From the IMG/VR virus record IMGVR_UViG_3300048021_000118, positions 1 through 32,561 of that record: DNA of 32,561 nucleotides, one strand, 5' to 3'. The position numbers and the translations under genes are program-made. The notes below the pieces were generated by a model. The model was not told the DNA's origin and searched no databases. It saw nothing but the letters and a program-made list of their open reading frames with translations. Position 1 is the first letter of the stretch; every line of letters begins with the position of its first letter. This DNA is from a virus. Shown here piece after piece: positions 8,534 through 10,192 of the stretch.

Positions 8534-8567
8534 TAAACAAAGAAATAGGGCGACCGTTAAGCCGCCC
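8534..8567 (-). terminator. Rho-independent terminator/attenuator after the first leftward gene
   Basis: On the minus strand GGGCGGC (8567-8561) pairs with GTCGCCC (8554-8548), 7 bp with one G-U and loop TTAACG, followed by a T-rich tract TATTTCTTTGTTT. It lies 7 bp after the stop of the gene 8574-8984, so it would limit transcription into the rest of the leftward operon. Confidence 0.7.
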
Positions 8568-8573
8568 TGATGG

Positions 8574-8984
8574 TTAACCCAAGATGCGCTTAAGTTCGCT
8601 GGCATCTCCAAGTCCATCTGATTTGTAAGTACGCTTCGGCTTGTGCGTCCAGACTTCGCCTTGTGTTACCTCGGTGTAAACATTCTTGTCTGCTTCGTGA
8701 CGCTCTTGAAGCTCTGCTAACTCAGCCTCCATCTTGCGATAGAGTGAGATCTTCTTGCCGATATTAATGTCAACAACTTCCTGTCCTGCTGATTCAGCAA
8801 GGGCTGCAAGCTCGTTCTTAGTTACTGACATCTGCTCTGACTTCCATTCGATAGAATTGAAGCTGGTGTAGCAAGCATCTCTGGCAATACTTATGCGAAG
8901 ATATTCATTGTGGTCACCTTTATGATGGTTAATTACCGCTAGCTTGAGATCGAAAAGTGTAGGTGTAGCGTTCTTCTTAGTCAT
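8574..8984 (-). CDS. Hypothetical early protein, first gene of the leftward operon
   Basis: A 136-residue soluble protein starting MTKKNATPTLFDLKLAVINH, with a long helical, probably coiled-coil stretch (KISLYRKMEAELAELQERHE, residues about 77-96) and a basic C-terminal region (THKPKRTYKSDG). ATG 8984 is chosen because AGGAGAACTAGAC precedes it; an ATG at 9017 has no site. It is the first leftward gene and is followed by its own terminator, so it should be made at the highest level early in infection. No family is recognised; a host-takeover or regulatory role is only a guess from position. Confidence 0.75.
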   Translation of the reverse strand: MTKKNATPTLFDLKLAVINHHKGDHNEYLRISIARDACYTSFNSIEWKSEQMSVTKNELAALAESAGQEVVDINIGKKISLYRKMEAELAELQERHEADKNVYTEVTQGEVWTHKPKRTYKSDGLGDASELKRILG

Positions 8985-9004
8985 GTCTAGTTCTCCTGTG
9001 ATGT

Positions 9005-9555
9005 GTGCGAGGACCATCCCCGCACGGCGACTTGAAGCACGGAGCAGAAACGCCCAGAGGCGCTTGCAGTTCGCAATATCCGAGGAACGAGCGTTATTGC
9101 GAACTGTTTCTGCCCGATGCTCAACAAAGACGGGCAGGGGATGACCGCAGCCTCACTCGCAGGGGAACGCCGAACATGGATAAGACAGGACGATGCGCCT
9201 TAAGCTTTTCGTTCTCAGGCTGGCGGTCTTTTAGTAGGCATCATTTTTAGAAGGTGGACCGCAATGAATACGCATAAGTATGGTCAGAGATCTTGCTGCC
9301 AGCTTTGGTTCTATTGGATGGCAGTCTGAGCCAGTAACTAAGGGCGGGCTTGTAGCCGAATCAGCAGGGCAGGAAGATGTTGCCATCGGCAAGTCACTCT
9401 ATGCAAGATGGTGAGTTAGCGCTTCAAGTGCTCACGGAGTAGACTGTTTGCAGCGGGGTGACGCAAGGCTGGGCGCATCAGCTGGAGTGTGCTTTCATGT
9501 TAGATGCTGGGATATGCCTATGAACTAGCGTGTCTTGGCGTCACCATCTAGGGTG
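9005..9555 (+). ncRNA. Candidate large structured noncoding RNA
   Basis: This stretch has no credible gene but many long complementary segments that nest into domains. 9067-9078 pairs with 9095-9106 (12 bp perfect), stacked directly on 9044-9050/9107-9113 (7 bp), with a small hairpin 9051-9062 in the same junction. 9143-9152/9218-9228 (10 bp, one bulge) continues into 9163-9169/9210-9216 (7 bp). Smaller stems are 9268-9271/9278-9281 and 9296-9301/9319-9324. A 3' domain is closed by 9395-9400/9550-9555 and 9406-9409/9546-9549, enclosing hairpin 9411-9434 and 9457-9464/9538-9545 (8 bp). Three helices contain T-G pairs on the + strand, which would be A-C mismatches on the other, so the + strand is favoured. 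Size, phage context and multi-domain layout recall ornate RNAs such as GOLLD or ROOL; identity is not shown. Some helices have competing partners (for example 9290-9296 with 9403-9409). Confidence 0.55.
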
Positions 9556-9599
9556 CTTAGCGGTTGTGCTATTTATGGTGTCAACTGGAATAATAAGGT

Positions 9600-9636
9600 G
9601 TGACGTAAGGTAATTAGTATAGTTACGTAACGTCAC
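9600..9636. promoter_or_regulatory. 37-bp imperfect inverted repeat, operator type A, copy 2
   Basis: GTGACGTAAGGTAAT (9600-9614), spacer TAGTATA, then GTTACGTAACGTCAC (9622-9636). The halves match 12/15 as an inverted repeat, and the right half contains the perfect palindrome GTTACGTAAC. The spacer region holds a minus-strand TATACT (-10-like), so a leftward early promoter could be embedded here. It has the same geometry as 7975-8011. It lies between the leftward early operon and the rightward late genes, as expected for a control point. Confidence 0.6.
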
Positions 9637-9667
9637 TATTGACAGACACATAGGAAATAGTGTTAGC

Positions 9668-9715
9668 GTGGGGGGAGAGAGGGAGAGGGGGGCTAGTGAA
9701 TGAGAAATAAGCCCC
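9668..9715 (+). repeat. G-rich hairpin element, copy 1 (upstream of terS)
   Basis: The element begins GTGGGGGGAGAGAGGG, continues with a second run of six G, then GGCTAGT (9691-9697) and ends AAGCCCC. GGGGCT and AGCCCC can pair (6 bp, 15-nt loop). Alternatively the G runs could form a quadruplex. A related element (GTGGGGG ... GGCTAGT ... CCCC) lies just after terS at 10217-10264. A packaging-site role is possible. Confidence 0.45.
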
Positions 9716-9724
9716 AATGTATAA

Positions 9725-9817
9725 ACAATCCTTCTTAACCATAGCTTACTGCATCTAGCAAACACAGACGACAGCAGTTAGCTAGATGTTAGTCGTCAGC
9801 TTAGAAGAAAGGATTGT
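9725..9817 (+). promoter_or_regulatory. Folded mRNA leader sequestering the terS ribosome-binding site
   Basis: ACAATCCTT (9725-9733) pairs perfectly with AAGGATTGT (9809-9817), extended by CTT/AAG with one bulged A. The 3' arm contains the AAAGGA ribosome-binding site of the GTG start at 9821. Inside, CATCTAGC (9752-9759) pairs with GCTAGATG (9781-9788), and GACGAC (9767-9772) with GTCGTC (9792-9797). The two are interleaved, i.e. a possible H-type pseudoknot. This suggests translational control of terS. Confidence 0.6.
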
Positions 9818-9820
9818 AGT

Positions 9821-10192
9821 GTGGTTCCCGCTAAGAAGCTAACTGATAAACAGACTGCGCTGGTGGATATAATGGTATCAAAAGGGCTGCCTGCAGCTAA
9901 AGCTGCCATTGAAGCTGGGTACGCTGAAGGCAAGTCTGGATACGTCTCAGCTTACAAAGCACTCAAGACAGCCCATGTGCAGCAGTACATGATGCAGAGA
10001 ATGAATGAGGAGTTTGGACTTAGTGCTACCGTGGCTGTAAACACAGTGCGTAGGCTATCACAGGGTGCTAAGTCTGAGTATGTTCAGCTTGAAGCTAGTA
10101 AGGATTTGTTGGATCGTGCTGGCTACAAGCCTATCGATAGAAGCCAAGTACAAGTGGCTGGTGACATCAAGGTAAGCATAGATCTAGGGTAA
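9821..10192 (+). CDS. terS: Terminase small subunit
   Basis: A 123-residue protein that should recognise phage DNA and present it to the large terminase. The N-terminal part has LTDKQTALVDIMVSKGLPAA-type sequence followed by AAIEAGYAEGKSGYVSAYKAL (residues about 8-50), the helix-turn-helix pattern of Terminase_2-type small subunits (KQxxFV..y...g....AA..AGY). Then comes a central oligomerisation helix region and an ASKDLLDRAGYKP segment (93-105) typical of the family. The start is GTG at 9821, with AAAGGA 7-8 nt upstream inside the folded leader. It is the first rightward gene after the non-coding region and is separated from terL by ten tiny genes. Confidence 0.85.
   Translation: MVPAKKLTDKQTALVDIMVSKGLPAAKAAIEAGYAEGKSGYVSAYKALKTAHVQQYMMQRMNEEFGLSATVAVNTVRRLSQGAKSEYVQLEASKDLLDRAGYKPIDRSQVQVAGDIKVSIDLG

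Follow-up and report, generated by a model that had tools for sequence, protein, structure and literature searches.

Large phage RNAs are, to our knowledge, few in number and of unknown function. Among them, GOLLD and ROOL are structured RNAs of ~0.6-1 kb with unknown function, which adopt ornate, branched and pseudoknotted folds, are often located near tRNA genes and are represented by Rfam models (PMC12286853). The sequence analyzed here, IMGVR_UViG_3300048021_000118, is a 32,561-nt stretch of marine phage DNA that is referred to, in its full length, as the window. It resembles these systems in harboring a large structured phage RNA candidate, but differs from them in that the candidate is a palindrome forming an unbranched rod beside the terminase small subunit gene (terS), with one arm constituted by the antisense of a protein gene. 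A search against Rfam returned no match in the window at gathering thresholds and none on 8900-9860 even at an E-value of 10. The region is hence not a divergent GOLLD or ROOL, one of two possibilities raised in an initial annotation of this DNA, nor a divergent OLE or HEARO. No tRNA or tmRNA gene was detected in the 32.5-kb window, and the genomic setting near tRNA genes that is common for GOLLD and ROOL is therefore absent here.

In the ColE1 plasmid, the structured portion of RNA II lies upstream of a G-rich tract, RNA I is complementary to the RNA II hairpins and the Rop protein is a helical hairpin. The phage locus is similar in presenting a predicted structured RNA 5' of a G-rich tract, both on the + strand (rod 8543-9575, tract 9670-9692), a putative opposite-strand transcript complementary to hairpins and a neighboring protein predicted to be a helical hairpin. 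The phage stem, in contrast, extends to 1 kb, with a gene overlapping it. Obelisks and HDV-like RNA replicons are described as ~1-kb rods, one arm of which contains an ORF (PMC11922315, PMC13096302). The phage element shares both traits, but it resides in a DNA genome, its ORF lies opposite the favored rod strand and a circular RNA is not indicated. Eukaryotic hairpin-RNA loci, which arise via inverted gene duplication, likewise combine an inverted gene copy, an imperfect long hairpin and co-evolving arms; unlike them, the element described here belongs to a phage, is not accompanied by RNA interference machinery and uses the source gene itself as one arm. No description of such an element was found in the open-licence papers searched.

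We judge the chances to be evenly balanced that this locus represents a class of phage RNA that is new: a rod, at most 1.2 kb long, in which the antisense of a gene makes up one arm and a non-coding arm follows the gene, in which G-U pairs would maintain RNA pairing yet interrupt the palindrome in DNA and which, together with the G-rich tract, could form a possible RNA-primed origin beside terS in a widespread group of marine phages. The element is abundant in marine phages and has a relative in an isolated Pelagibacter phage. Its architecture would have an entire coding gene double as an arm of an RNA hairpin under selection, and it allows experiments on how a genome may keep a kilobase of double-stranded RNA without a lethal DNA palindrome.

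Results

Structure of the palindrome

Comparison of the window with itself revealed that 8543-9574 aligns with its own reverse complement, defining one imperfect palindrome that extends from approximately 8543 to 9575 and within which 9174-9574 is an inverted copy of 8543-8986 (70% identity). When folded as + strand RNA, 8543-9575 yields a single rod with a minimum free energy (MFE) of -628 kcal/mol, a z-score of -26.5 against shuffled sequences and 82% pairing, versus -473 kcal/mol and a z-score of -17.8 for the - strand in the same test. The + strand MFE structure contains 383 pairs with a span above 150 nt, the outermost being 8530/9585 and the innermost 9004/9155, and places 331 of the 411 bases of the leftward gene in paired positions. 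The longest perfect Watson-Crick runs in the stems measure just 12-24 bp. The components of the locus are listed in Table 1.

Table 1. Features of the palindrome and its right flank, in window coordinates.
Feature	Position	Strand	Description
5' (left) arm	8543..9004	+	Antisense of the leftward gene, its terminator and its Shine-Dalgarno region; from self-inverse alignment and MFE fold
Intrinsic terminator of leftward gene	8547..8568	-	Within the left arm
Leftward protein gene	8574..8984	-	136 aa when read from the conserved ATG; the ORF list gives 147 aa, starting at an upstream ATG
Hinge (apical domain)	9005..9154	+	Conserved elements GTGCGAGGACCATCC and TTCGCAA/TTGCGAA
Apical 12-bp hairpin	9067..9106	+	In the MFE fold; best conserved helix of the family; covaries in 19 sequences
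3' (right) arm	9155..9575	+	Non-coding; complementary (Watson-Crick and G-U) to the antisense strand of the gene
Right-arm-only motif YTTTTAGTA...TTTTAG	9228..9254		Internal loop, conserved across all clades
TTGACA	9639..9644	+	Conserved; ~30 nt (start to start ~31) before the G-rich element
GGGGGGAGAGAGGGAGAGGGGGG, 23-bp G-rich element	9670..9692	+	Once per genome, between hairpin and terS
terS, terminase small subunit (Terminase_2)	9821..10192	+	Profile matches

The initial annotation had placed a large structured RNA with several domains at 9005-9555, an interval that it considered devoid of a believable gene. The latter observation agrees with the absence of Rfam matches and with the right arms of relatives, which carry 4-13 stops per + frame; a coding right arm is ruled out by stops in all frames. 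The boundaries of the feature needed correction, as it starts ~460 bases further left, within and past the neighboring gene, and what had been taken for a closed 3' domain is in fact a palindrome's 3' arm, the partner of which is that gene. Three of the helices postulated on the shorter interval (9143-9169/9210-9228, 9395-9409/9546-9555 and 9457-9464/9538-9545) were not recovered in the full fold, where 9395-9409 pairs with 8731-8746, 9457-9464 with 8663-8670 and 9543-9555 with 8562-8574, all of them in the left arm. Folded by itself, 9005-9560 behaves much as shuffled sequence on either strand (z-scores of -1.43 and -1.14), because this interval comprises the hinge and one arm. The hairpin 9067-9078/9095-9106, on the other hand, is real: it is present in the MFE fold and its stem covaries among 19 related hinge sequences. 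The notion of a large structured RNA is hence upheld as a conserved, covarying + strand candidate, while the ornate multi-domain fold gives way to an unbranched rod.

A single alignment of all hinges recovered just the apical stem, because the loop modules vary between phages. The hinge of one IMG/VR locus (L056:1568-1758) is near-identical to window 8985-9175 despite different adjacent genes, a likeness that suggests module exchange through recombination. The motif YTTTTAGTA...TTTTAG of the right arm has no template in the gene and is possibly the -10 region of the promoter of the leftward gene.

Distribution in related phages

Relatives were drawn from IMG/VR, and searches of phage GenBank by DNA and by the protein of the leftward gene returned no matches. 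All examined loci of related genes (62-99% protein identity) carry the palindrome, and each full-length relative tested presents one palindrome of 1.07-1.15 kb, with E-values from 1e-93 to 1e-149. The isolate Pelagibacter phage EXVC031P Hodr (TerL 64.7% identical) contains a 0.69-kb palindrome around its own leftward gene. It is virtually certain that the palindrome is genuine and conserved. Inverted copies are a known type of chimera in amplified or long-read libraries, and a fold-back chimera generated during assembly or sequencing could in principle create such a structure; its recurrence across many metagenomes and in the Hodr isolate, however, provides independent loci that refute an artefact, which we regard as extremely improbable.

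Two samples of loci, 80 obtained by terminase profile and 68 by the 23-bp G-rich element, presented hairpins of 150-1256 bp at the same site, flanked by the leftward gene on one side and terS on the other. Most of these related marine phages carry a shorter or longer version: a palindrome lies next to the G-rich element at 46 of the 68 loci sampled by it. The downstream parts of the loci contained one palindrome in ~480 kb, and bacterial prophages with more distant terminases were mostly without a palindrome. A separate palindrome, long but weak, precedes terL in a Desulfovibrionaceae MAG (L144:5769-6380).

The near-continuous spread of stem lengths at this one site (150-1256 bp), together with the shortness of the perfect Watson-Crick runs (12-24 bp), is compatible with a structural or decoy RNA, whereby a long imperfect double-stranded RNA would either scaffold a particle or occupy proteins that bind such RNA (RNase III or a defence sensor). 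Stem length would then be free to vary, growing outward by inverted duplication of adjoining sequence. Such a role is nonetheless somewhat unlikely, for it leaves unexplained why the Shine-Dalgarno sequence and start codon are always included in the stem and why the stem is linked to the G-rich tract that precedes terS.

The leftward gene

The Shine-Dalgarno sequence and ATG of the leftward gene are conserved in all relatives. Between clades, dS values of 1.3-2.4 against dN values of 0.11-0.28 indicate that this is a true protein gene, the synonymous sites of which are near saturation, and the right arm has therefore followed the gene through that divergence. The protein matched no Pfam family and had a weak PHROG match (E = 0.063). 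Its AlphaFold2 model, with three helices and a mean pLDDT of 80.5, predicts a helical hairpin; a Foldseek search with this model found no significant PDB match, a Rop variant appearing at a non-significant E-value of 0.97, and the fold search gave weak matches to phage proteins without names (E = 2e-3).

The position of this gene within the stem is relevant for a possible antisense control, in which the + transcript, antisense to the gene, would be folded back by the right arm, and silencing of the gene would require its unfolding or cleavage. In full-length forms the left arm coincides exactly with the transcription unit of the gene, from Shine-Dalgarno sequence and ATG to terminator, and the Shine-Dalgarno sequence and ATG lie within the stem in those forms for which arm sequences were read. 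The stems of many phages, however, cover just the beginning of the gene, some tens to hundreds of bases, and simple termination would be a cheaper solution, so that control of this kind is unlikely.

Co-evolution of the arms

Right arms score ~350-445 against the genes of their own clade, versus ~86-262 against the genes of other clades. The structured RNA proposed in the initial annotation implied covariation among relatives, and compensatory changes are present in their palindromes: RNAalifold identified 379 pairs in a six-sequence alignment, 59 of them with compensatory change. Pairs with double changes numbered 53, compared with 8-18 for slid partners and at most 40 for shuffles, and the strand comparison used as a further control gave -417 for the + strand versus -317 for the - strand. 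In the close pair L016/L017, 10 double changes are paired versus 2 unpaired, and they sit between shared bulges, mismatches or G-U pairs that are usually 3-16 bp apart. Many single changes between these two loci break pairs, and the constraint per pair is therefore moderate. Irregularities are also shared at greater distance, with L016 and L037 having 26 bulges in common versus 5.2 expected and G-U pairs too being common between clades beyond chance. Judging from these alignments, the arms almost certainly co-evolve.

An ordinary pseudogene, that is, a decayed inverted duplicate, does not fit these data, since the right arm tracks its parent gene and its divergence is not neutral. An inverted duplication is nevertheless the simplest origin for the right arm, and an old, functionless copy might have been kept similar to the gene by quasi-palindrome correction or gene conversion; the arms do evolve in concert, and most double changes finish as perfect pairs. 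Gene conversion is unlikely, however, given that it would require templated tracts shorter than ~16 bp that spare neighboring bulges and G-U pairs. The irregularities common to clades beyond chance (L016/L037), the existence of a conserved motif proper to the right arm and a G-U asymmetry and G enrichment that oppose the neutral base bias also speak against a functionless arm, and we consider it very unlikely.

Strand asymmetry of the arm differences

Differences between the arms that leave G-U rather than A-C on the + strand predominate by 43:1 in the window, by 56:4, 41:6 and 27:3 in other clades, by 28:3 and 31:5, independently, in two long forms (L117 and L118) and by 683:202 when pooled over the G-rich-element loci. 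With respect to the gene, the right arm presents A-to-G and C-to-T changes, the reverse being almost absent, so that the + strand keeps G-U pairs where the - strand would have A-C mismatches. The restriction of T-G pairs to the + strand, already remarked on in the initial annotation for a few helices, thus proved to be the key signature of the element. A mutational bias behind these changes is rejected by the composition of 4-fold sites in + genes (G 0.115, A 0.277): neutral sites are G-poor, and mutation therefore does not explain the A-to-G excess. Because the G-U excess runs against base bias, decay, gene conversion and assembly artefact all fit poorly, and it is probable that selection acts for RNA pairing on the + strand. 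That the candidate + strand RNA is made and functional appears likely.

The + strand might alternatively fold as single-stranded DNA during replication or packaging, which would render both a transcript and a promoter unnecessary and would agree with the adjacency of terS and the G-rich element. The Hodr group (L019:5332-6025, which is Hodr, and L039-L048) also lends itself to this interpretation: its arms differ almost exclusively by small indels, show no G-U excess and consist of perfectly paired, nearly substitution-free runs between bulges. A change from A-T to G-T is costly in DNA, however, and its equivalent from A-U to G-U is nearly neutral in RNA; with ~30 such changes in the clade of the window, the balance would therefore favor RNA, and folding as single-stranded DNA is quite unlikely. 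The absence of a G-U excess from the Hodr group speaks against a selected + strand RNA; under that model the group would be another solution to the same constraint.

Right flank and proposed role

The TTGACA sequence downstream of the rod is the probable -35 element of the terS promoter. Just 5' of it, a palindromic operator-like sequence (TGACGTNACGTCA type) is present at 9600-9636 and recurs in several clades. The G-rich element GGGGGGAGAGAGGGAGAGGGGGG is found exact and single-copy in at least 120 IMG/VR stretches. It precedes terS in those phages that were examined, in some of which no hairpin was detectable. From its sequence, possible functions include an R-loop, a quadruplex, a packaging element or a transcription-start element.

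We infer that the selected unit is the rightward (+) transcript. G-U pairs would keep this RNA paired while being mismatched in DNA, and the phage may thereby avoid a perfect, unstable DNA palindrome. A rightward transcript would have the rod as its structured leader and would then enter the 23-bp G-rich tract ahead of terS; there, the nascent RNA could remain hybridized to its template and prime DNA replication. The leader of the leftward gene would naturally provide a countertranscript to the hinge, and the whole would resemble ColE1 RNA II. An RNA-primed replication origin, with rod and G-rich tract in a primer role, is our leading guess, though a tentative one. If correct, the element may reveal the start of replication in these phages. 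Cumulative GC skew has its minimum at 7-9 kb, a weak signal that is confounded with gene orientation. No sigma-70-like promoter was found on the + strand left of the left arm, nor a conserved one in relatives, and the left flank of the palindrome differs between close relatives (L006, L008), points that count against this reading. The G-rich tract also fits a terS transcript start or a packaging site. Taken as a whole, a co-evolving + strand RNA rod, perhaps serving as a transcript leader or primer, is the best explanation for the locus, and we hold it with slightly less than even confidence.

The contig ends, 1-127 and 32435-32561, overlap by exactly 127 bases. This is a usual assembly k-mer length, and the overlap therefore points to circularity of the assembly and falls short of proving a terminal repeat.
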